Source of the DNA: Sphingobium sp. CCH11-B1
GTDB taxonomy: Bacteria > Pseudomonadota > Alphaproteobacteria > Sphingomonadales > Sphingomonadaceae
Direction of reading: 5' to 3'
Length of the DNA: 35,438 nucleotides
NCBI RefSeq assembly: GCF_001556865.1
Contig: NZ_LSJY01000201.1
Coordinates: 1 to 35,438, forward strand
Below, one piece after another: positions 16,326 to 27,269 of this stretch. Numbering within the stretch: position 1 is the stretch's first letter; each line of letters starts with the position of its first letter. Position numbers and translations under genes: made by a program. A model generated the notes under the pieces. It was not told the origin of the DNA, searched no databases, and saw only the letters and a list, made by a program, of their open reading frames with translations.

Positions 16326-16907
16326 ATGCGAATCGTGATCATCGACGACAGCGGCCTGCGCGCGACCGTCCTGGAGGAAGGGCTGCGGGACGCGGGCTAT
16401 GATGACATCCACATCGTCCCGCCCCGCGGCGCCTTCGTTGCGCGCCTCGAACGCATGGCCCCGGACGTCGTGTTGATGGACCTCGGCAGCCCCAGCCGCG
16501 ACATGCTGGAGGAAATGCTGACCGTCAGCCGCGCACTTGCCCGGCCGATCGCCATGTTCGTGGACCAGTCGGACGAAACGATGATCGGCGCGGCGATCGA
16601 TGCGGGGGTTTCCGCCTATGTCGTGGATGGCCTGCGCAAGGAGCGGGTGAAGCCTGTGCTCGAACTTGCTGTCCGCCGTTTCAACGCCTTTTCCAAGATG
16701 CAGGCGGAGCTGGAGGAAGCGCGCACCGCGCTCCACGACCGCAAGATCATCGATCGCGCCAAGTCGATTCTCATGAACCAGCGCGCCCTTTCCGAGCAGG
16801 ACGCCTATGCGCTGCTGCGGTCGAGCGCGATGAATCAGGGGAAGAAGATCGTGGATGTCGCGCAGGCGCTGATCACTGCCAGCGACCTGCTGGGAGGGGG
16901 GACATGA
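16326..16907 (+). CDS. nasT: NasT-type ANTAR antiterminator response regulator
   Basis: This 193-residue RNA-binding antiterminator controls nitrate assimilation. The N-terminal receiver-like domain (1-120) has the acidic pair D7/D8 and the possible phospho-acceptor D52 in VVLMDLGSPSRD. A coiled linker leads to the ANTAR domain (about 127-188). This domain contains DRKIIDRAKSILMNQRALSE and the conserved DAYALLRSSAMNQGKKIVDVA pattern of NasT/AmiR/EutV. ANTAR proteins bind paired hexaloop hairpins in leader RNAs and stop terminator formation; two such leaders lie downstream at 18159-18280 and 20896-21026. The stop overlaps the start of nasS by four bases (ATGA), the usual NasT-NasS pairing, except that in most genomes nasS comes first. 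The ribosome site (GGTGAG) is weak. Confidence 0.93.
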   Translation: MRIVIIDDSGLRATVLEEGLRDAGYDDIHIVPPRGAFVARLERMAPDVVLMDLGSPSRDMLEEMLTVSRALARPIAMFVDQSDETMIGAAIDAGVSAYVVDGLRKERVKPVLELAVRRFNAFSKMQAELEEARTALHDRKIIDRAKSILMNQRALSEQDAYALLRSSAMNQGKKIVDVAQALITASDLLGGGT

Positions 16908-18099
16908 CCGTTCATCTGAAGATTGCCTTCCTCCCGCTGAACGACGCGGCCGTGCTGGTCGCCGCGCGGGAGCGGGGCTTTGCCGAGGCTGAAGGGCTGA
17001 CGCTCGATCTTGTCCGCACGACCAGCTGGGCGACGCTGCGCGACCGGCTCGTTTTCGGACAGGTCGATGCCGCGCAGATGCTCGCCCCACTGGCGGTCGC
17101 GGTCACACTCGGCCTCAGCCAACAGGCCGCGCCGATCGCGGCGCCCTACAAGCTGGGCGTCAATGGCAATATGCTGGTGATGGCGAGCGATTTCGCCAAG
17201 GCGCTGGAGCCCGATGTCGCCGCGCGTATCGCCGATCCGCTGGGCACCGCGCATGATTTCGCCGCCGCGATCGGCTTGTGGCGGTCGTCCATCGCTTTTC
17301 CAGTCACGCGCTGATGCTGCGCTACTGGCTTGCGAGCGCGGGCGTCGATCCGGATCGGGACGTGCTGCTGCGCGTGCTGCCTCCCTCGCTGACGGTCGAG
17401 GCGATGCGCGCGGGCGAGATTGACGGCTTCATCGCCGGCGAACCGTGGGGCAGCGCTGCGGTCGAGGCGGGCCTTGCCGAAACGGTGGCGACGGGCGAGC
17501 GCATCTGGCGGCGCGGGGTGGAGAAGGTGCTGGCCTTCCGCGAACGCTGGATGGAGGAAAATCCTGATACTGTCGATCGCCTCCTGCGCGCACTGGCAGG
17601 GGCGGCGGCCTGGTGCGACGATACGGCGAACCATACCGTCCTTGCCGACCTGCTCTCGGACAGCCGCTATGTCGATCAGCCCGCCGACCTCATTGCTCGC
17701 GCGCTGTCGGGCCAGATCGTCGCGCGGGCCGGGGAGGCGGCGATCGCCCATCCCGATTTCATGCTCTTTGCCCGTGAAGCCACGCCCTTCCCCTGGCGCA
17801 GCCAGGCGCTCTGGATTTACTCGCAGTTCGTCCGCTGGGACATGGTGACGCATGACCCAGCTGTGGCGGCTAAGGCGGGCGGAGTATTTCGCCCGGATGT
17901 CTATCGCCGCGCGCTCGCCGATATGGATGTCGCGATGCCCGGCGCGAGCATGAAGGTGGAAGGGGCCGTCGACCGACCGCTGGGCGTCGGATCGCGGCGC
18001 GGGGAATTGACTCTGGGGCCGGACCGATTCTTTGATGGACGCATTTTCGATCCGGAACGGATCGAAGACTATGTTGCCGGCTTTACCGCCCGCCGTTGA
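16904..18099 (+). pseudogene. nasS: NasS-type nitrate sensor, interrupted by a frameshift
   Basis: NasS resembles the nitrate-binding protein of ABC transporters but stays in the cytoplasm, where it sequesters NasT until nitrate or nitrite is present. The first frame (16904-17314) gives a typical N-terminus, LKIAFLPLNDAAVLVAARERGF, and continues to about residue 125. The continuation, starting VAVVHRFSSHALMLRYWL and including GEIDGFIAGEPWGS, is in another frame (from about 17278 to 18099). The change from frame 0 to frame 2 fits one missing base near 17270-17278. As read, translation stops at 17314 with about 136 residues instead of about 398. No signal peptide is present, as expected for NasS. 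A strong AGGGGGG site inside nasT precedes the ATG. Either this is a true loss-of-function mutation or a sequence error; both halves are otherwise well conserved. Confidence 0.85.
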
Positions 18100-18158
18100 A
18101 TAAAGGCGCAATTTTGTGCCTTGCAACATGATGCGAATCGCGGGATAACATAAGGGTC

Positions 18159-18213
18159 GCGCGACGAAGCGCGCTTATTCGGATGCATCGTCCCAAGGGT
18201 GGGCCGCGCATCC
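18159..18213 (+). promoter_or_regulatory. ANTAR-type paired hairpins, NasT target upstream of the nitrate transporter gene
   Basis: Two hairpins with six-base loops lie in the leader between nasS and the transporter gene. The first has a 5-bp stem GCGCG/CGCGC (18159-18174) with loop ACGAAG. The second is an interrupted stem with outer GGATGC/GCATCC (18181-18186 with 18208-18213) and inner CCC/GGG, closing the loop AAGGGT (18195-18200). The second loop has A at position 1 and G at position 4, as expected for ANTAR targets; the first keeps only the A. An intrinsic terminator follows immediately. Binding of NasT should favour read-through. Confidence 0.7.
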
Positions 18214-18228
18214 TCTCCACATCGCAGC

Positions 18229-18280
18229 AAAGCCGCTGATCGGACACGCCAATGGCGTACGTCCGGCCTGCGGCTTTTTT
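18229..18280 (+). terminator. Intrinsic terminator in the leader of the nitrate transporter gene
   Basis: AAAGCCGC (18229-18236) pairs with GCGGCTTT (18270-18277), and the T-run covers 18275-18280. An inner GGAC/GTCC and GCC/GGC helix fills the loop. It lies 33 bases upstream of the transporter start codon, after the paired hexaloop hairpins, as in attenuation systems controlled by NasT/NasR. Confidence 0.8.
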
Positions 18281-18312: not shown

Positions 18313-19557
18313 ATGGCTACCGCTTATTGGGATCGCGACACGCAGGACAGCGCGCCCGCCGCCGCGACCAGCTTCTGGAAAGCCGGTCACACACCGACGT
18401 TGATCGCCGCTTTCCTGTATTTCGACCTCGCTTTCATGGTGTGGGTGCTGCTTGGCCCGCTCGCGCCGATGATTGCCAAGACGCTGCTGCTGACTCCGGC
18501 CGAAAAGGGGCTGATGGTGGCGACTCCCACGCTGGCTGGCGCGTTCCTGCGCGTCGTCAACGGCCTGTTGGTCGACCGCATCGGGCCTAAGCGGTCGGGC
18601 GCAATCAGCCAGATCATTGTCATCGCCGGCCTGTTCAGCGCCTGGGCGCTGGGCGTCAACAGCTTCGGCGGTACGCTTGCGCTGGGCGTGATCCTGGGCT
18701 TTGCGGGGGCGAGCTTCGCCATCGCCCTGCCGCTTGCCAGCCGCTGGTATCCGGCCGAACATCAGGGGAAGGCTATGGGCCTAGCCGGCATGGGCAATTC
18801 GGGCACGGTGCTCGCCGCGCTCTTCGCGCCGATGCTCGCGAAGCTGTTCGGCTGGAACGCCGTACTGGGCCTTGCCTGCATTCCGCTGACGATCGTGTTC
18901 GTCGCCTATATGCTGATGGCGAAGGATGCGCCGAACGCCCCTGCGCCCAAGAAGCTGGTCGACTATTTCCAACCCCTGAAAAAGGCCGACGCCTGGTGGC
19001 TGATGGCCTTCTATTCGGTGACGTTCGGTGGTTTCGTCGGCCTTGCTGCGTCGCTGCCCATCTATTTCACGGACCAGTTCGGCCTCACGCCGGTAATCGC
19101 CGGCTATTGCACCGCTGCTTGCGTCTTCGCCGGATCGCTGGTCCGGCCGATGGGCGGCGCCCTTGCCGACAGGATCGGCGGGTCGAAGGCGCTGATGATG
19201 GTCTTTTTCGTAGCCGCTCTGGCGCTCGCCGGAGTCGGGTTCGCGCCCACTCTCGTCAGCGCGCTTGGCCTGTTCGTGGTCGCGATGCTGGCGCTCGGCG
19301 CCGGCAATGGATCGGTGTTCCAGCTTGTGCCGCAGCGCTTCCAGGCGGAGATCGGCGTCATGACTGGCCTGGTCGGCATGGCGGGCGGCGTCGGCGGCTT
19401 TTACCTCGCCAGTTCGCTGGGCTTGGCCAAGCAGTTTACCGGCAGCTTCGCCCCAGGCTTCCTGATTTTTGCAGGGCTTGCCGTCGTGGCGCTGATCGGC
19501 CTCGCCCTGGTCAAGGGCAAGTGGCGTGCTACCTGGACCAGCGGCGCGCGCATCTGA
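18313..19557 (+). CDS. NarK/NasA-type nitrate/nitrite transporter (MFS)
   Basis: This 414-residue inner-membrane transporter of the nitrate/nitrite porter family in the major facilitator superfamily has about 12 hydrophobic segments. Two diagnostic Gly-rich signatures are present, GLAGMGNSGTVLAALFAP in the first half and LALGAGNGSVFQLVPQRF in the second. The loop after helix 2 contains NGLLVDRIGPKRSG, which corresponds to the MFS signature. The start is ATG 18313, with GGGGGA six bases upstream, directly after the leader terminator, so expression requires antitermination. It brings nitrate and possibly nitrite into the cell for NasA and NirBD encoded downstream. I leave the symbol open because nasA is also used for the reductase. 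Confidence 0.92.
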   Translation: MATAYWDRDTQDSAPAAATSFWKAGHTPTLIAAFLYFDLAFMVWVLLGPLAPMIAKTLLLTPAEKGLMVATPTLAGAFLRVVNGLLVDRIGPKRSGAISQIIVIAGLFSAWALGVNSFGGTLALGVILGFAGASFAIALPLASRWYPAEHQGKAMGLAGMGNSGTVLAALFAPMLAKLFGWNAVLGLACIPLTIVFVAYMLMAKDAPNAPAPKKLVDYFQPLKKADAWWLMAFYSVTFGGFVGLAASLPIYFTDQFGLTPVIAGYCTAACVFAGSLVRPMGGALADRIGGSKALMMVFFVAALALAGVGFAPTLVSALGLFVVAMLALGAGNGSVFQLVPQRFQAEIGVMTGLVGMAGGVGGFYLASSLGLAKQFTGSFAPGFLIFAGLAVVALIGLALVKGKWRATWTSGARI

Positions 19558-19624: not shown

Positions 19625-20845
19625 ATGAAATATCTTCTCGTATCGGCGGCCACGCTGGCCGTCGCCGGGCCGGCCTGCGCCCAGCAGATCAGCCTCAAGC
19701 CCGTCGCCGAAGCCCGCCTTCGTTACGAACATGCGCGGCAGGACGGGCTTCCCACCGAAACCAGCGACGCGCTCACTGCCCGCGTCCGCGCTGGAGGCAC
19801 CGCCACCAACGGAGCCTTTTCGGCGACGGTGGTAGGGCAGGGGAGCCTTGCCATCATCGACGACTATTATGACGGGGTGAACGGGGCGGCCACGCGCCCG
19901 ATCATCGCTGACCCGCAGAATATCGCTCTTTATATCGCCCAGCTTCGCTATCAGGCAAAGGCGTTCGCCTTCACCGCCGGCCGCCAGAATATCGCGCTCG
20001 ACGACGAGCGCTTCGTCGGCAATGTCGCCTTCCGCGACAACGCCCAGACCTTCGACGCGGTGCGGGCTGAACTCTCGCCCTTAAAGGGGATGAAGCTCGA
20101 CATCGCCTATGCCTGGAGTGCCCGCACCATCTGGGGCATCGACGGCAAAGGCGCGCGGCAGCAGGCGATCGGTGGCGACAATATCTTCGCCAATCTTTCC
20201 TATGCAACGCCGGTCGGCACGCTCACGGGCTTCGCCTATCTGGTGGATCAGGACGAGGCCGCAGTGCAGGGCTATCGTCTTTCCAGCCAGACCTACGGCC
20301 TGCGCCTCACCGGCACACGGCCGCTCTCGAAAACGGCGAAACTCTCCTATCAGTTGAGCCACGCGCGTCAGTCCGACTACCATCGAAATCCCAACAGCTA
20401 TCGCGCCAACTATTGGCTCGCCGACGCGACGCTGGACATGAGGGGCTGGAAACTCAATGCCGGCTATGAAGTACTCGGTGCGGCCAGAAGCGGGGTAGCG
20501 GGCGCGGCGCTCACCAGCTTCCAAACGCCGCTCGGCACCAATTTCAAATTCCAGGGCTGGGCCGATAAATTCCTTACCACCCCGCCCAATGGCGTACGCG
20601 ACGTCTATGTGGGTGGTGGGTACGGCCTGAAACAGTTGGGGCCGCTGTCGGGCGTCAACCTGTCGGCCACCTGGCATCGCTTCAGCAGCGACCGGCTCGA
20701 CCTTCATTATGGCGACGAATGGAATCTGCTCGCCTCCGCGAAGCTCCGGAAGACGATGCTCTCGGTTCGCTACGCTCACTATGATGCGAAGGCGCTGGCG
20801 ACGGAGACGGAAAAGCTCTGGCTCCAGGCGGACTGGAGCCTGTAA
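19625..20845 (+). CDS. Outer-membrane porin of the alginate-export family
   Basis: This 406-residue beta-barrel protein carries a signal peptide (MKYLLVSAATLAVAGPACAQ, cleavage after Ala at about residue 19). The mature part has alternating polar and hydrophobic strands with many Tyr, Trp and Arg residues, among them LKPVAEARLRYEHAR at the N-terminus, FTAGRQNIALDDERFVG and the C-terminal LWLQADWSL. These are hallmarks of the Alginate_exp family (AlgE-like barrel). A strong GGGGGGA site precedes ATG 19625. The gene lies between the nitrate transporter gene and the nirB leader, with no alginate genes near, so it probably serves as an outer-membrane channel for nitrate/nitrite or another anion. 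That function is inferred from context. Confidence 0.82.
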   Translation: MKYLLVSAATLAVAGPACAQQISLKPVAEARLRYEHARQDGLPTETSDALTARVRAGGTATNGAFSATVVGQGSLAIIDDYYDGVNGAATRPIIADPQNIALYIAQLRYQAKAFAFTAGRQNIALDDERFVGNVAFRDNAQTFDAVRAELSPLKGMKLDIAYAWSARTIWGIDGKGARQQAIGGDNIFANLSYATPVGTLTGFAYLVDQDEAAVQGYRLSSQTYGLRLTGTRPLSKTAKLSYQLSHARQSDYHRNPNSYRANYWLADATLDMRGWKLNAGYEVLGAARSGVAGAALTSFQTPLGTNFKFQGWADKFLTTPPNGVRDVYVGGGYGLKQLGPLSGVNLSATWHRFSSDRLDLHYGDEWNLLASAKLRKTMLSVRYAHYDAKALATETEKLWLQADWSL

Positions 20846-20895
20846 CCTCGAAATGGCTTGAGCCGGTTCGCGAATCGGCTTATGCTGCAACGCAA

Positions 20896-20947
20896 GAGGA
20901 CAAGGATGTCCTTCGAACCATAGCCGCGACGATCCACGGATGGATCG
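20896..20947 (+). promoter_or_regulatory. ANTAR-type paired hairpins, NasT target upstream of nirB
   Basis: Two hairpins with near-identical hexaloops are visible. AGGAC/GTCCT (20897-20901 with 20908-20912, extendable by a G-T pair) closes the loop AAGGAT. CGATCC/GGATCG (20930-20935 with 20942-20947) closes the loop ACGGAT. Both loops have A at position 1 and G at position 4, the residues recognised by ANTAR proteins. The linker is 17 bases. A further hairpin, AGCCGGTT-CGCG-AATCGGCT at 20861-20880, lies upstream just after the porin gene and may serve as its 3' end. The arrangement matches NasR/NasT leader RNAs. Confidence 0.82.
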
Positions 20948-20966
20948 CCAAGGCGCAGATGATGGC

Positions 20967-21026
20967 AAGGCCGCCATCCAGACGTTCGGATTTCAAAGCC
21001 CGGCCGTCCGGATGGCGGCCTTTTTT
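20967..21026 (+). terminator. Intrinsic terminator in the nirB leader
   Basis: AAGGCCGCCATCC (20967-20979) pairs perfectly with GGATGGCGGCCTT (21010-21022), a 13-bp stem whose distal side runs into six T residues (21021-21026). It ends 20 bases upstream of the nirB start and follows the two hexaloop hairpins. nirB, nirD, nasA and cobA should therefore be expressed only when NasT prevents termination, unless other promoters exist. Confidence 0.88.
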
Positions 21027-21046
21027 GTTTCCGAAAGGGACGGGCA

Positions 21047-23566
21047 ATGGAATTGCAGGTCAGGAACGATAGCCGGGCGGGAGCGGAGGATGAGATGCTC
21101 GTCCCGTTCGAGGATGTCCGCGAGCATCTGGTCGTCATAGGCAACGGCATGGCCGGTTGCCGCGCGATCGAAGAACTGCTGGCGCGGGATGCGGGGCGTT
21201 ACCGCGTCACCATCTTCGGGGCCGAGCCGCATGTGAACTATAACCGCATCATGCTCTCGCCGGTGCTGGCCGGGGAAAAGACGTTCGATCAGATCGTCAT
21301 CAACGACGCCGCCTGGTATGCCGACAATGACATAGAGCTGATCGCCGGCGATCCGGTCATCGAGATCGATCGCGCCGCCAAGACCGTCACGAGCCGATCG
21401 GGTCGCACCACGGGCTATGACAAGCTGTTGATCGCCACCGGTTCCGACCCGTTCATCATCCCGGTGCCGGGTAAGGATCTGCCTGGCGTCATCAGCTTCC
21501 GCGACATGAAGGATGTCGATACCATGCTGGATGCCGCCGGCAAGGGCGGCGAAGCGGTCGTGATTGGCGGCGGCCTGCTCGGCCTTGAAGCCGCGCATGG
21601 CCTGACCCTGCGCGGCATGAAGGTGACGGTCATTCACCTCATGGACACGCTGATGGAGCGGCAGCTCGACGAAGCGGCCGGCTGGTTGCTGAAGAGCGCG
21701 CTGGAGGCACGGGGGCAGACGATCCTGACCGGCGCGAACACCGCCGAAATCTACGGGCAGGGCAAGGTCGAAGGCGTCCGCCTGAAGGACGGGCGCGACA
21801 TTCCCGCCAGCCTCGTCGTCATGGCGGTCGGAATCCGGCCCGCGACTGCACTGGCGAAGGCGGCGGGACTTGCGGTCAATCGCGGCATCCTGGTCGACGA
21901 TCATATGGTGACGAGCGATTCCAATGTGCTGGCGGTCGGCGAGTGCGTCGAGCATGACGGCAATGTCTATGGGCTGGTCGCGCCGCTGTGGGACATGTGC
22001 CGCAGTCTGGCCGATGGCCTCACCGACCGGCATAGCGGTTACAAGGGGTCGGTCACCTCGACCAAGCTCAAGGTCGCCGGGCTGGACGTCTTTTCCGCCG
22101 GCGATTTTTCAGGCGGCGAAGGGTGCGAGGACATCGTCCTGCGCGATGCATCGCGCGGCGTCTACAAGCGGGTGGTCGTCAAGGACGACCGCATCGTCGG
22201 CGCGGTGCTATATGGCGACACGGCGGACGGCGGCTGGTATTTCGACCTGCTTCGGCGTGAGGAGAATATCGCGGACATCCGCGACCTGCTGATCTTCGGC
22301 CAGGCATTCGCCCAGGGAGGGGGCGCGCTGGACCCTAGGGCGGCCGTTGCGGCGCTCTCGGACGATGCCGAGATTTGCGGCTGCAACGGCGTCAGCAAGG
22401 GCCAGGTCATCGGCTGCATCGAAGAGGGCGCATGCAGCCTCGACGCCGTCCGCGCCACCTGCAAGGCCTCGGCAAGCTGTGGCTCGTGCACCGGCCTGGT
22501 CGAAAACCTGCTGGCGGTGGTGCTGGGCGAAGAGGTGAAGGCCGGCCCGAAGACCATGTGCAAATGTACCAGCTTCACCCATGATGATGTGCGGCGCGAG
22601 ATCGTCGCGCAGAATATGCGCTCTATCCCCGAAGTGATGCAGCGGCTGCACTGGACGACACCGGACGGCTGCTCCTCCTGCCGTCCCGCGCTCAATTACT
22701 ATCTGCTCTGTGCGTTACCGGGCGAATATCAGGACGACCAGCAAAGCCGCTTCGTCAACGAACGCATGCACGCCAACATTCAGAAGGACGGCACTTACTC
22801 GGTCGTGCCGCGCATGTGGGGCGGCCTCACCAACCCTCGCGAGTTGCGCGCGATTGCGGACGTGGTCGAGAAATATGACGCGCCTATGGTCAAGGTGACC
22901 GGCGGCCAGCGGCTGGACATTTTCGGGATCAAGGGGGAGGATCTGCCTGCGGTCTGGGCGGACCTCAACGCCGCCGGCATGGTTTCAGGCCACGCCTATG
23001 GCAAGTCGCTGCGTACGGTGAAGACCTGCGTCGGCTCCGAATGGTGCCGGTTCGGCACGCAGGATTCGACCGGGCTCGGCGTCAAGACTGAGCGGATGAC
23101 CTGGGGGTCGTGGATGCCCCACAAGTTCAAGATCGCCGTGTCGGGCTGCCCCCGCAATTGCGCCGAAGCGACGATCAAGGATTTCGGCATCGTCTGTGTG
23201 GATTCGGGCTATGAGCTGCATGTCGGCGGCAATGGCGGCATCCATGTCCGCGCCACCGACCTGCTGTGCAAAGTCGTGACCGAGCAGGAGGCGCTGGATT
23301 ACTGCGCTGCCTTCATTCAGCTTTACCGCGAGGAAGCCCGCTATCTGGAGCGCACCGCGCCCTGGATCGAGCGCGTCGGCGTCGACTATGTGAAAAGCCG
23401 CATCGTCGAGGACGAAGCGGGCCGCGAAGCGCTGCGCGCCCGCTTCCTCTATTCCCAGCGCTTCAGCCAGGACGATCCCTGGGCGGAACGCGCCGCCGGC
23501 GCCGATGCACAGCTCCACCAGCCCCTTCACCCCTCAATGCCCTTTGGCGCAATCGCTGCGGAGTAA
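21047..23566 (+). CDS. nirB: NADH-dependent assimilatory nitrite reductase, large subunit
   Basis: This 839-residue cytoplasmic flavo-iron-sulfur-siroheme enzyme reduces nitrite to ammonium with NAD(P)H. The FAD motif VIGNGMAG lies at 29-36 and the NAD motif VIGGGLLGLEAA at about 172-183. Two BFD-like [2Fe-2S] motifs follow: C444/C446 with C478/C481, and C505/C507 with C542/C545. The C-terminal sulfite/nitrite reductase half carries the siroheme-[4Fe-4S] ligands C661/C667 (CVGSEWC) and C701/C705 (CPRNC). The first about 20 residues before the FAD domain are longer than usual. The start is ATG 21047, with an AAGGGA site, placed directly behind the leader terminator. nirD follows after four bases. 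Confidence 0.95.
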   Translation: MELQVRNDSRAGAEDEMLVPFEDVREHLVVIGNGMAGCRAIEELLARDAGRYRVTIFGAEPHVNYNRIMLSPVLAGEKTFDQIVINDAAWYADNDIELIAGDPVIEIDRAAKTVTSRSGRTTGYDKLLIATGSDPFIIPVPGKDLPGVISFRDMKDVDTMLDAAGKGGEAVVIGGGLLGLEAAHGLTLRGMKVTVIHLMDTLMERQLDEAAGWLLKSALEARGQTILTGANTAEIYGQGKVEGVRLKDGRDIPASLVVMAVGIRPATALAKAAGLAVNRGILVDDHMVTSDSNVLAVGECVEHDGNVYGLVAPLWDMCRSLADGLTDRHSGYKGSVTSTKLKVAGLDVFSAGDFSGGEGCEDIVLRDASRGVYKRVVVKDDRIVGAVLYGDTADGGWYFDLLRREENIADIRDLLIFGQAFAQGGGALDPRAAVAALSDDAEICGCNGVSKGQVIGCIEEGACSLDAVRATCKASASCGSCTGLVENLLAVVLGEEVKAGPKTMCKCTSFTHDDVRREIVAQNMRSIPEVMQRLHWTTPDGCSSCRPALNYYLLCALPGEYQDDQQSRFVNERMHANIQKDGTYSVVPRMWGGLTNPRELRAIADVVEKYDAPMVKVTGGQRLDIFGIKGEDLPAVWADLNAAGMVSGHAYGKSLRTVKTCVGSEWCRFGTQDSTGLGVKTERMTWGSWMPHKFKIAVSGCPRNCAEATIKDFGIVCVDSGYELHVGGNGGIHVRATDLLCKVVTEQEALDYCAAFIQLYREEARYLERTAPWIERVGVDYVKSRIVEDEAGREALRARFLYSQRFSQDDPWAERAAGADAQLHQPLHPSMPFGAIAAE

Positions 23567-23570
23567 GACC

Positions 23571-23906
23571 ATGACCGACTGGATCGACATCGGCACGCTG
23601 GCCGACATTCCCACGCGCGGCGCACGCACTGTGCGGATTGCGGGCGAAAAGGAGATCGCGATCTTCCGCACTGGCGACGACCAGGTCTTCGCGCTGGTCA
23701 ACGAATGCCCCCACAAGCAAGGGCCGCTAAGCCAGGGGATCGTCCACGGTCACAGCGTGGCCTGCCCACTGCATAACTGGACCATCGCGCTGAAAACCGG
23801 CGAGGCGCAGGGCGCGGACAAGGGCTGCACCCCAACGGTTCCGGTGCGAATGGACGGCGACCGCATTCTGATCGCGCCGCCCGAGCAGGCGAGGGCGGCC
23901 GCCTGA
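23571..23906 (+). CDS. nirD: Nitrite reductase small subunit, Rieske type
   Basis: This 111-residue partner of NirB has a Rieske fold. Unlike the enterobacterial NirD, it keeps all four cluster ligands, C46 and H48 (CPHKQGPLS) with C65 and H68 (CPLHNW), so it probably binds a [2Fe-2S] cluster. It begins four bases after the nirB stop at ATG 23571. The same frame is open upstream inside nirB without significance. Its stop TGA shares one base with the ATG of nasA, which indicates coupled translation. The short Ala-rich tail is not conserved. Confidence 0.93.
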   Translation: MTDWIDIGTLADIPTRGARTVRIAGEKEIAIFRTGDDQVFALVNECPHKQGPLSQGIVHGHSVACPLHNWTIALKTGEAQGADKGCTPTVPVRMDGDRILIAPPEQARAAA

Positions 23907-26503
23907 TGGACCAAGCCATCCGCACCACCTGCGCCTATTGCGGCGTCGGCTGCGGCATTTCCGCGACGCCGACCGGCCCGCGCTCGGCCCTCATAAAGGG
24001 CGACGAGGCGCATCCCGCCAATGCCGGCCGCCTTTGCTCGAAGGGTACGCATCTGGGCGAGACGATTGGCCTAACCGGTCGCCTCCTCCACCCGATGATC
24101 GGCAGCAAGCGTGCGAGTTGGGACAAGGCGGTTGACCTCGTCGCGCGGAAATTCCGCGACACGATCGACCGCCACGGCCCCGACAGCGTCGCCTTCTACG
24201 TTTCGGGTCAATTGCTGACCGAGGATTACTATGTCGCCAACAAGCTGATGAAAGGCTTCATCGGCTCGGCCAACATCGACACCAACAGCCGCCTCTGCAT
24301 GTCGAGCGCGGTCGCCGGTCACAATCGCGCCTTTGGCGAAGACATTGTGCCGGCCAGCTATCAGGATCTTGACGAAGCCGACCTGATCGTCCTTGTCGGC
24401 TCCAACACTGCTTGGTGTCACCCGATCATCTATCAGCGCATCCAGGCCGCCCGCGCCGCGCGCGGCACGAAACTGGTGGTCATCGACCCTCGCCGCACCG
24501 AGACCTGCGAAGGCGCGGACCTGCATCTGGCGCTCAAGCCCGGCACCGACGTCGCCCTGATGAACGGCTTGCTCGCTTGGGCAGCGGCGGAAGGCATCGC
24601 GTCATCCGATCATCTGACGGTGCCGGACGGCTTCTGGGACCATATCCGCGCCGACCATGATCTCTGGACCACGGCCAGGACCTGCGACCTGCCGCCCGCG
24701 CAATTGGAGCAATTCTTCCGCCTGTTCGCCGCCACGCCCCGCACCGTCACCCTGTTCAGCCAGGGCATCAACCAATCGATCCGCGGCACTGATCAGGTGA
24801 ATGCGATCCTCAACGTCCACCTTGCCACCGGCCGCATCGGCAAGCCGGGCGCGGCGCCCTTCTCGATCACCGGCCAGCCCAATGCCATGGGGGGGCGCGA
24901 AGTCGGGGGCTTGGCCTCCACGCTCGCCGCTCACATGGATTTCGCGCCTGAGAATGTCGCGCGCATTGGCCGTTTCTGGGCAGCGCCCAATATGGCAACG
25001 AAGCCTGGCCTCAAGGCTGTCGATCTGTTCCGCGCGATCAATGAAGGGCGGATCAAGGCGCTCTGGATCATGGCGACCAACCCTGCCGTCTCCATGCCCG
25101 ACGCCGGCCGTGTGCGCGAAGCGCTGGCCTCGGTTCCCTTCCTTGTCGTGTCGGACATCATGGCTGCCACCGACAGCAGCCCCCACGCCCATGTCCGCCT
25201 GCCCGCCGCCGGCTGGGGGGAAAAGGACGGCACCGTCACCAACAGCGATCGCACGATCAGCCGCCAGCGCCCCTTTCTCGCTCTGCCCGGCGAGGCGAAA
25301 CCCGACTGGTGGATTGTTACGCAGGTCGCGCGCCGAATGGGCTGGCGAAACGCCTTCGCCTATGACCGGCCCGCCGACATCTGGCGCGAGCATGCGCGCC
25401 TCACCGCCTATCAGAATGATGGGCAGCGGCTGCTGAACCTGCGCGCCCATGCGACCATCGGCAACGACGCCTATGAGGCGATGGAGCCGTTCCGCTGGGG
25501 CGGCACGCCCTTTACCGATGGACGCTTCCCGACCCCGGATGGCAAGGCGCGGCTGGTGTTGACCAGGCAGATGGACATTCAGCCACCGCTGCGCGACTGG
25601 CCGCTGACGCTCAACACCGGCCGCTACCGCGACCAATGGCATACGATGACCCGCACTGGCCTCTCGCCCAGGCTCGCGCGCCATCGCGAGGAGCCGCTGG
25701 TGGAGGTGCACCCCGGCGACGCGCAGGCGCTGGACCTTGCCGAAGGCGATCTTGCCCGCGTCACGACGGCCCAGGGCGACAGCCTGTTCCGGGTTGCCTT
25801 GACCGAAGGCCAGCGGCCTGGTGAAATCTTTACCCCGATCCATTGGACCGATCAGGTTTCGACCGGAGGGCGCACCGGCCTCCTGCCCCGGCCGCTGGTC
25901 GATCCCCATTCGGGCCAGCCCGGCTTCAAGTCCACGCCCGCCCGTCTCGCCAAAGTGGCGGCCGAATGGAAGGGCTTTCTCATCCTGCGAGGGTCGGAGC
26001 CGGTGATGCTGCCCGGTCTCTGGGCCACGCGGGTCACGGTTCCCGGCGGGGCGCTCTACGAGATTGCCGGAAATGGCAATCCCGCGCGCCTCGACGTCTG
26101 CCTGCCCAAAGGCGACCGAGTCGAGGCGGTCGATCCCGCGCGCGGCACTTGCCGCATCGCGATCCTGCGCGAAGACCGGCTCGCCGCCGTCCTCTTCGTC
26201 ACCCGGACCGGCCTCCTGCCTTCGCGCGACTGGCTGATCGGGCAATTGGAGGCCGAAGGCGTGACCGCCGCCGTCCTTGCCGCGCGCGGCCCCGGCAACC
26301 AGCCGGAAAAGGGCGCGACCATCTGCGTGTGCTTCGACATCGGTCTCAATCAGATCGTCGCCGCGATCCGCGACCAGAGCCTGGTGGACGTGCCCGCCAT
26401 CGGCCAGGCGATCGGCGCGGGAACCAATTGCGGGTCCTGCCGCCCCGCGCTTGCCAATATCCTCACCCAGACCATGCAGGAGACGCTCCATGCCGCAGAA
26501 TGA
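23906..26503 (+). CDS. nasA: Assimilatory nitrate reductase, molybdopterin catalytic subunit
   Basis: This 865-residue cytoplasmic enzyme reduces nitrate to nitrite. An N-terminal [4Fe-4S] motif C9-x2-C12-x3-C16-x27-C44 is followed by the bis-MGD binding region, for example TNSRLCMSSAVAGH, VLVGSNTAWCHP and KLVVIDPRRTETCEGAD. A molydopterin dinucleotide binding domain includes LTLNTGRYRDQWHTMTRTG. The C-terminus carries an extra BFD-like [2Fe-2S] domain with C807/C809 and C842/C845, as in NasA/NasC proteins that receive electrons directly from a redox partner. No separate NasB-type reductase gene is seen in the cluster. The start shares a base with the nirD stop, and the end overlaps cobA by 14 bases. 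Confidence 0.95.
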   Translation: MDQAIRTTCAYCGVGCGISATPTGPRSALIKGDEAHPANAGRLCSKGTHLGETIGLTGRLLHPMIGSKRASWDKAVDLVARKFRDTIDRHGPDSVAFYVSGQLLTEDYYVANKLMKGFIGSANIDTNSRLCMSSAVAGHNRAFGEDIVPASYQDLDEADLIVLVGSNTAWCHPIIYQRIQAARAARGTKLVVIDPRRTETCEGADLHLALKPGTDVALMNGLLAWAAAEGIASSDHLTVPDGFWDHIRADHDLWTTARTCDLPPAQLEQFFRLFAATPRTVTLFSQGINQSIRGTDQVNAILNVHLATGRIGKPGAAPFSITGQPNAMGGREVGGLASTLAAHMDFAPENVARIGRFWAAPNMATKPGLKAVDLFRAINEGRIKALWIMATNPAVSMPDAGRVREALASVPFLVVSDIMAATDSSPHAHVRLPAAGWGEKDGTVTNSDRTISRQRPFLALPGEAKPDWWIVTQVARRMGWRNAFAYDRPADIWREHARLTAYQNDGQRLLNLRAHATIGNDAYEAMEPFRWGGTPFTDGRFPTPDGKARLVLTRQMDIQPPLRDWPLTLNTGRYRDQWHTMTRTGLSPRLARHREEPLVEVHPGDAQALDLAEGDLARVTTAQGDSLFRVALTEGQRPGEIFTPIHWTDQVSTGGRTGLLPRPLVDPHSGQPGFKSTPARLAKVAAEWKGFLILRGSEPVMLPGLWATRVTVPGGALYEIAGNGNPARLDVCLPKGDRVEAVDPARGTCRIAILREDRLAAVLFVTRTGLLPSRDWLIGQLEAEGVTAAVLAARGPGNQPEKGATICVCFDIGLNQIVAAIRDQSLVDVPAIGQAIGAGTNCGSCRPALANILTQTMQETLHAAE

Positions 26504-27269
26504 CCTGATCGCGCCCGGCGAGGTCTGGCTGGTGGGCGCAGGTCCGGGCGATCCCGACCTCCTGACCCGCAAGGCCGAAAATCTGATCGCCGCCGCTGAC
26601 ATCATCTTTTACGACGCGCTGGTGGGGCCGGGTGTGCTCGATCTTATCCCGCCCGGCATCGAGTGTATCAGCGTCGGCAAGCGATCGGGCCGCCACAGCA
26701 AGGCGCAGGGCAGCATCAACGACCTTCTGCTCGCGGCGGCGAAGGCAGGGCGGCGCGTCGTCCGTCTGAAGGGCGGCGACCCGTCCATCTTCGGCCGCTC
26801 CGCCGAGGAGATGGCGCATCTGGGACGGGCAGGTGTGGCTGTCCATATCTGCCCCGGCATCACCACGGCCAGCGCGGCGGCTGCCAGCGGCCATATGTCG
26901 CTCACCCTGCGCGGCGTCGCGCGCGGGCTGACCTTGGTGACGGCGCATTTGCGCATTGGTGAGCCGCTCGCGCTTGACTGGGCGGCGCTTGCCGGCAGCA
27001 GCACGCTGGGCATCTATATGGGCCGCTCGGCGGCGAGCGAGATCAGCCGCAATCTGATCTCGGCGGGGCGGCACCCCGATACGCCGGTGATGGTCGCGGT
27101 CAACGTCTCGCTGCCGTCCGAGCGGTTGATAAGGGGCAAGCTCTCTGCGCTTGCCTTTTTGGTGGAGGCGGTCAGCGACAAGGAACCGACTCTGCTGCTG
27201 GTGGGGGAGGCGGTCAGGAATCACGGCCGGGCCGAGGCGGCGAATGATCGCGCACTGCTAAACGCCTGA
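26490..27269 (+). CDS. cobA: Uroporphyrinogen-III C-methyltransferase (SUMT)
   Basis: This 259-residue SAM-dependent enzyme methylates uroporphyrinogen III at C2 and C7 to give precorrin-2, the precursor of siroheme needed by NirB. Motifs are VGAGPGDPDLLT (15-26), VRLKGGDPSIFGR (91-103) and CPGITTASAA (121-130), all typical of CobA/CysG-C. The start ATG 26490 lies inside the end of nasA (14-base overlap) and is preceded by AGGAG; the frame continues open further upstream without meaning. No dehydrogenase/ferrochelatase domain is fused, so precorrin-2 must be completed by an enzyme encoded elsewhere. It closes the nitrite/nitrate operon. Confidence 0.93.
   Translation: MPQNDLIAPGEVWLVGAGPGDPDLLTRKAENLIAAADIIFYDALVGPGVLDLIPPGIECISVGKRSGRHSKAQGSINDLLLAAAKAGRRVVRLKGGDPSIFGRSAEEMAHLGRAGVAVHICPGITTASAAAASGHMSLTLRGVARGLTLVTAHLRIGEPLALDWAALAGSSTLGIYMGRSAASEISRNLISAGRHPDTPVMVAVNVSLPSERLIRGKLSALAFLVEAVSDKEPTLLLVGEAVRNHGRAEAANDRALLNA

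Follow-up and report, generated by a model that had tools for sequence, protein, structure and literature searches.

A probable NasT-responsive antitermination leader with three hexaloop hairpins upstream of nirB in Sphingobium

Introduction

The RNA motif targeted by ANTAR proteins is described as a dual hexaloop element with A at loop position 1 and G at loop position 4 (A1/G4), in which the second hairpin, P2, overlaps the terminator in attenuators (PMC3369931, PMC8164766). The linker between the two hairpins is given as 2–25 nt (PMC8164766), and the published screen for such elements required a terminator overlapping P2 (PMC3369931). In the reported structural model, an ANTAR dimer engages a single loop at any moment, going from a recruitment hairpin to an antitermination hairpin, and 20 nt added between the two abolish antitermination (PMC8934654). 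Among nitrate-responsive systems, the NasT protein of Paracoccus denitrificans is reported to bind the nasA leader RNA and to oligomerise once released from NasS (PMC3795266), and of the hairpins of that leader, HI is needed for growth on nitrate and HII is dispensable (PMC5424462). In Bradyrhizobium, NasT is described as an antiterminator of nosR, and a NasT hairpin is predicted for nirA (PMC6759348). Such hairpins are also predicted for Bradyrhizobium narK, but its expression goes up instead of down when nasT is missing (PMC6759348), and thus a leader alone is no proof of activation.

Here, we analyze a 35,438-nt stretch of a Sphingobium sp. CCH11-B1 contig (NZ_LSJY01000201.1, positions 1 to 35,438; hereafter, the window), for which an initial annotation had proposed a textbook ANTAR leader in front of nirB, with the nitrite/nitrate reductase operon under NasT antitermination.

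Results

Genes and proteins of the locus

The genes considered here all lie on the + strand of the window:

16326–16907, +: nasT, with receiver (PF00072) and ANTAR (PF03861) domains; presumed RNA-binding antiterminator
16904–18099, +: nasS-like nitrate sensor gene, frame split near 17263–17284; NMT1_2 domain in the second half
18313–19557, +: narK-like nitrate/nitrite MFS transporter gene (TIGR00886, 277.6 bits, below the cut-off of 311.7; MFS_1)
19625–20845, +: outer-membrane porin-like gene (weak Alginate_exp match, below cut-off)
21047–23566, +: nirB, nitrite reductase large subunit (839 aa, open throughout; TIGR02374, 947.7 bits)
23571–23906, +: nirD-like small subunit gene (Rieske)
23906–26503, +: molybdoenzyme gene with a C-terminal BFD domain, probably assimilatory nitrate reductase (named from context; no NCBIfam model over its cut-off)
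26496–27269, +: tetrapyrrole methylase gene (cobA/sirohaem-synthase-like), overlapping the end of the reductase gene

The position of nasT, 4 kb upstream of the leader, is as the initial annotation had it. The PDB relatives of the encoded protein are 1s8n, 6wsh (EutV) and 4akk (NasR). In an alignment whose offset of 2 was set by hand, the counterparts of EutV R142, K143, K149, E160, Y164, R168, M172 and N173, eight residues reported to contact RNA (PMC8934654), are identical in the window NasT, while those of K147, R175 and R177 are R, G and K; R175 and R177 are described as part of a triple mutant with lost binding (PMC8934654). No intact NasS partner is read from the window, where the nasS frame is split. 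Its two parts match the NasS of two relatives (L010 and L012) in two frames, with 88–91% and 83–85% identity, and the split is therefore recent or an assembly error. When eight relatives were inspected by a short motif, a long unbroken NasS-like frame was seen in two, again L010 and L012, the motif having missed the other six. If the split is real, NasT might be free without nitrate.

Three hexaloop hairpins precede nirB

Between the porin-like gene and nirB, we resolve the following features:

20858–20886, +: putative sigma70-type nirB promoter (TTGAGC-17-TATGCT), with GAATC at 20872–20876 in the spacer; conserved in homologues
20896–20913, +: hairpin 1 (H1), GAGGAC-AAGGAT-GTCCTT, A1/G4 loop, presumed recruitment hexaloop
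20930–20947, +: hairpin 2 (H2), CGATCC-ACGGAT-GGATCG, A1/G4 loop, presumed recruitment hexaloop
20961–20978, +: hairpin 3 (H3), GATGGC-AAGGCC-GCCATC, A1/G4 loop, likely antiterminator
20967–21026, +: intrinsic terminator, 13-bp stem 20967–20979/21010–21022 with T-tract 21021–21026

The two A1/G4 hairpins that had been annotated (loops AAGGAT and ACGGAT) are present as H1 and H2, and the 13-bp stem is likewise found, with arms AAGGCCGCCATCC (20967–20979) and GGATGGCGGCCTT (21010–21022) and a T-run (21021–21026) whose end lies 20 nt upstream of the nirB start codon (ATG at 21047), as had been claimed. H3 escaped the first reading, as did a second leader that precedes the narK-like gene. The 5′ arm of the terminator (20967–20979) consists of the loop and 3′ arm of H3, and the two structures are therefore mutually exclusive. 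The linkers are 16 nt (H1–H2) and 13 nt (H2–H3), both inside the 2–25 nt range of the ANTAR motif, and the loop-to-loop distances are 34 and 31 nt, respectively. An ANTAR target is expected to have at least two A1/G4 hexaloop hairpins, and the window has H1, H2 and H3; a strict dual motif, with exactly two hexaloops, does not describe either the nirB or the narK leader, each of which has three conserved hexaloops.

The fold of 20880–21050 beats 200 of 200 dinucleotide shuffles (z −3.9). When AnnGnn hairpins were counted over the whole window (a hexaloop closed by 6 bp or more, G-U pairs included), the + strand gave 7, three of them within 83 nt at the nirB leader, and the − strand gave 12, none of which cluster like this trio. 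A fourth, weaker AnnGnn hairpin lies at 20847–20862, upstream of the nirB promoter. A scan of both strands of the window for a hexaloop overlapping a terminator returned two places, the nirB leader and 18229, before the narK-like gene. The fold shuffles, the hairpin scan and the covariation reported below lead us to reject a chance origin of the leader. An Rfam search of the window gave nothing at gathering score; the 28 sub-threshold matches in the leader (E ≤ 10, microRNA models on top) were taken as chance stem-loops.

Conservation and covariation of nirB leaders

Our scan for NirB homologues yielded at least 80 loci, and among the 80 listed, 76 are titled as sphingomonad genera. H3 and the terminator stand directly before nirB in the window and in 46 of the 80 listed loci, while the remaining 34 have no such leader directly before nirB. 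The strict scan finds the narK leader in five of these 34, and others have weaker model matches only; in many of the 34, nirB closely follows a porin or transporter gene (by eye). Our alignment (A1) comprises 37 distinct class A leaders, those of the window and 36 relatives, and leaves out one leader (L016) that matches another (L015) as well as nine class B leaders. Relatives were picked by the H3–terminator pattern, and H1 and H2 played no part in the selection.

Within A1, loop position 4 is G in 37/37 leaders for each of H1, H2 and H3. Loop position 1 is A in 30/37 (H1), 27/37 (H2) and 37/37 (H3, itself under the selection), and where it is not A in H1 or H2, it is G, except for one T. An unguided best-hexaloop count gives 36/37 and 37/37. 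The covariation of the leaders is 0.288 versus 0.172 when shuffled, with none of 500 shuffles as high, and slid-structure controls give 0.041–0.090. Double-sided pair changes number four in H1 and five in H2, or nine in total versus 6.3 in shuffles (reached by 7/500). The shuffles ignore the relatedness of the leaders, and we therefore rely more on the slid structures and the double-sided changes. The stems of H1 and H2 thus covary, a property by which the initial annotation had let its reading stand or fall, and the reading survives it. The H3 stem is invariant save for one G-U pair, an invariance that is partly by construction because relatives were picked on the H3–terminator pattern; in two leaders (L048 and L062), the H3 5′ arm, the shared arm and the terminator 3′ arm have all changed together.

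Class A leaders have near-constant loop distances of 34.1 ± 0.9 nt (H1–H2) and 31.4 ± 0.5 nt (H2–H3). Inside the intervals that were searched, these values cover 37 of 38 leaders, the exception being L036, which has no purine in H1. The nine class B leaders contain extra sequence between H2 and H3, by eye a hairpin without the hexaloop signature. Here, the H1–H2 distance is still 33–34 nt in 8/9 leaders, while the H2–H3 distance is stretched to 52–62 nt, which is of interest given the 20-nt insertion result reported for the EutV system (PMC8934654).

A second leader before the narK-like gene

The second leader and its promoter comprise the following features:

18120–18149, +: putative sigma70-type narK promoter (TTGCAA, 17-nt spacer, GATAAC), with GAATC at 18135–18139 in the spacer
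18158–18173, +: narK leader hairpin 1, CGCGC-GACGAA-GCGCG, loop G1/G4
18181–18213, +: narK leader hairpin 2, basal stem GGATGC/GCATCC, apical CCC-AAGGGT-GGG, A1/G4
18225–18238, +: narK leader hairpin 3, CAGC-AAAGCC-GCTG, putative antiterminator
18229–18280, +: narK leader terminator and T-tract, overlapping narK hairpin 3

This three-hexaloop leader spans 18158–18280. A strict pattern gave a narK-leader set of 46 rows, consisting of the window, 44 of the 80 listed loci and L175. We observe the same three-step layout with other stems: H1 is mostly G1/G4 (e.g., GACGAA), H2 is mostly AANGNN and the H3 loop is AAAGCC or AGAGCC (by selection). By alignment, a purine at position 1 and G at position 4 occur together in 43/46 (H1) and 46/46 (H2) leaders, and the unguided best-hexaloop count gives 41/46 and 43/46. 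Covariation is 0.173 versus 0.096 shuffled (0/500 as high), with slid controls at most 0.082. By strict criteria, 39/80 listed loci have both leaders. As the narK–porin genes have a leader of their own, control probably extends beyond the reductase operon.

Which hairpins make up the element

We extended the search to 55 nasT regions, from 15/64 and 40/84 matched genomes (three of which, G017, G044 and G094, are also in the family sample described below). A scan that demanded five consecutive T and one or more hexaloops upstream found leaders in 21 regions and none in 34. The majority (14/21) have one upstream hexaloop and an H3-like hairpin, while seven (L138, L139, L144, L175, L186, L187 and L201) have two upstream hexaloops, against a background of ~0.22 per 110 nt. 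Of these seven, L139 has one of its hexaloops upstream of a promoter-like sequence, and L175, at 82% NasT identity, is closely related. Set against this background, 7/21 does not establish three hexaloops as a general NasT feature.

The 14 simpler leaders are what would be expected if H2 and H3 were an ordinary dual element and H1 dispensable or unrelated, and the 13-nt H2–H3 linker falls within the described range (PMC8164766). We nevertheless consider this reading unlikely: the H1 loop keeps G4 in all 37 aligned leaders, its stem covaries, H1 recurs in the narK leaders, its distance to H2 is held in 37/38 leaders within the search windows used, and class B stretches H2–H3 rather than H1–H2.

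The textbook arrangement that had been annotated, with H1 as P1 and H2 as P2, is quite improbable. In its favor, both loops are A1/G4 in the window, the 16-nt linker is of a suitable length, the stems covary and the H1–H2 distance is kept in eight class B leaders even where H3 lies 52–62 nt further on. However, in a classical P1/P2 pair the second hairpin would overlap the terminator, as the published screen demanded (PMC3369931), and neither H1 nor H2 overlaps it. The hairpin that does overlap it is H3, with an A1/G4 hexaloop of its own (H3 being part of the relatives' selection). We therefore set aside H1 and H2 as the whole element. The description as textbook fails on the same grounds, with a third hairpin as the likely antiterminator and three hexaloops versus the two described, and the switch is corrected to H3 rather than H1/H2.

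Competing folds

In predicted folds of the RNA alone, prefixes of the window leader ending at 20979 to 21010 have H3 in the minimum-energy fold, and by 21015, the terminator has replaced it. Across the 37 leaders, folds cut just after H3 contain H1 in 36, H2 in 37 and H3 in 37, while full-length folds contain H1 in 35, H2 in 37, H3 in none and the terminator in 37. The predicted stability of the terminator is far above that of H3, and the switch would therefore hinge on kinetics and protein.

Association with NasT

We surveyed 149 genomes of the family of G001, with stricter filters by which weak matches are lost. At E ≤ 1e-3, the narK-leader model matches 17/149 genomes, each of which encodes NasT (72–95% identity). 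NasT-like proteins occur at 1e-30 in 50/149 genomes; at E ≤ 1e-3, the narK model has no match in the 33 other carriers or in the 99 genomes without, and one weaker match (0.0054) is in a genome without NasT. Strong matches of the nirB model (E < 1e-10) occur in 7/149 genomes, all inside the 17 with narK leaders; seven further weak matches (E 0.003–0.009) do not closely track NasT, one being in G124, which has no NasT-like protein. Genomes G001–G003 each have one ANTAR protein and G004 has two, by a search that matched 0/14 control genomes and thus had no positive control among them.

We consider it very improbable that the structured leader answers not to NasT but to a different ANTAR protein, a stalled ribosome or a small molecule. 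The two ANTAR proteins of G004 would leave room for such a reader, but NasT is the sole ANTAR protein found in G001–G003, the leader and NasT co-occur in 17/17 genomes and no Rfam family is matched at gathering score. Together with the covariation and the mutually exclusive folds, this co-occurrence gives good support to NasT antitermination of the nirB operon as first proposed, except that the hairpins then named are not the switch; the initial interpretation is right in kind and wrong on the working hairpin and on the word textbook.

Several narK-model leaders lie on contigs other than that of nasT (G034:C19:151521 and 156514, G012:C2:345515 and G120:C111:1444). They are followed by an NMT1_2 protein in G034, narK in G012 and a porin-HPP pair in G120; the second G034 leader (L225:3522-3612, − strand) has no identifiable gene after it. 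The analysis provides covariance models for an RNA that gave no Rfam match here and predicts nitrate-uptake targets on other contigs. We also observe leader-region DNA, 74–77% identical over 50–80%, on Novosphingobium and Sphingomonas plasmids (NZ_CP141945.1, NZ_CP017076.1, NZ_CP029986.1 and NZ_CP015523.1), and the module can therefore sit on secondary replicons.

Promoters and GANTC sites

From the conserved sigma70-like promoter, we predict that nirB transcription starts near 20893, upstream of H1. That the stem-loop is simply the terminator of the porin gene, whose stop codon is only ~120 nt upstream, with hexaloops by chance, is hardly credible and is rejected on the conservation and covariation of H1/H2, the conserved promoter between porin and leader and the like design before narK.

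A GANTC site occurs in the −35/−10 spacer of 33/38 nirB promoters, lying 8–9 nt before the −10 hexamer in 30/38 (0.02 expected per promoter), and beside the −35 box in 29/38; 23/45 narK promoters have GANTC 6–24 nt after CTTG. As the promoters are related, these counts are not independent. Both window sites read CGAATCG, the complement of the YGAKTCG motif quoted in PMC7987155. The GcrA family is found in 4/4 genomes by a search that also matched the Sulfolobus control besides Caulobacter. The sites may be of CcrM/GcrA type or may be a transcription-factor operator. Judged by eye, the sequence ahead of nasT leaders is sigma54-like outside the sphingomonads (boxes TGGCAC...TTGC; noticed at L134, L137, L139, L140, L186, L187, L192, L211 and L212) and sigma70-like within them.

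Discussion

Proposed mechanism

We read the nirB leader as a NasT-responsive transcription-antitermination leader with three hexaloop hairpins, in which H3 is the switch and H1 and H2 are recruiters, and assign this reading a probability of roughly 0.86. The three hairpins, their conservation and covariation, the exclusive folds and the association with NasT are computed from sequence, and the role of the protein is drawn by analogy with EutV, NasR and Paracoccus NasT: binding of NasT, recruitment followed by hand-over and release from NasS by nitrate would all be as in those systems. RNA polymerase would start near 20893 and make H1, H2 and H3 in order. Without nitrate, NasT would be held by NasS, and the emerging 3′ arm of the terminator (21010–21022) would displace H3, completing the terminator and halting polymerase ahead of nirB. 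When nitrate or nitrite is present, NasT would be free to dock on H1/H2 while the RNA is still being made and would be handed on to the emerging H3, which, held by NasT, would last until polymerase clears the T-tract and goes on to transcribe nirB, nirD, the nitrate reductase gene and cobA. The nitrate-sensing system can thus probably switch on the nirB operon through the leader, and the second leader, being of like design, probably acts likewise for narK and the porin gene.

The near-constant H1–H2 distance may reflect an obligate relay, a two-dimer platform or simply more local NasT. A more speculative proposal, which we regard as doubtful, is a distinct class of ANTAR leader in which the fixed-distance H1/H2 pair is a platform for NasT (two dimers, or an oligomer such as that reported for Paracoccus NasT once nitrate has released it) that raises capture and hands NasT to H3, two leaders share one NasT, and the fixed GANTC promoter sites make nitrate assimilation depend on CcrM methylation and GcrA, i.e., on the cell cycle. 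How an ANTAR dimer passes from the recruitment hairpin to the antiterminator is a mechanistic question in the 2022 structural model, and hand-over is made testable here by two upstream loops at nearly constant spacing, a class with stretched H2–H3 and a sister leader that NasT probably controls as well.

Comparison with known systems

Among the literature matches listed, we noticed no three-hexaloop ANTAR leader (subscription papers lay outside the scope) and nothing on such a leader in sphingomonads. Partial precedents are EutX and PPE1-5′, the latter with three hairpins. The EutX small RNA combines a dual hexaloop motif with one more G4 hexaloop in one RNA, but is described as a sequestering small RNA rather than a leader with two hairpins ahead of an antiterminator (PMC8934654). 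The eut-operon RNA targeted by EutV in Enterococcus faecalis shares the A1/G4 hexaloops, the overlap of the last of these with the terminator and the ANTAR response regulator, whereas the leaders described here have three hexaloops (34 and 31 nt apart, loop to loop, in the window), tolerate G at position 1 and come with NasS/NasT in place of the histidine kinase EutW.

The nasF leader of Klebsiella oxytoca, with NasR, is likewise a case of nitrate-responsive ANTAR antitermination of nitrate assimilation, but NasR is a one-component sensor and the leader is treated as a dual motif (PMC3369931). The NasS–NasT/nasA leader system of P. denitrificans uses proteins of a like kind, and the report on its leader names a pair of hairpins, HI at 137 bp and HII at 91 bp upstream of nasA (PMC5424462). 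The published motif is dual, whereas the nirB leader has a pair of upstream loops at fixed spacing before the likely antiterminator.
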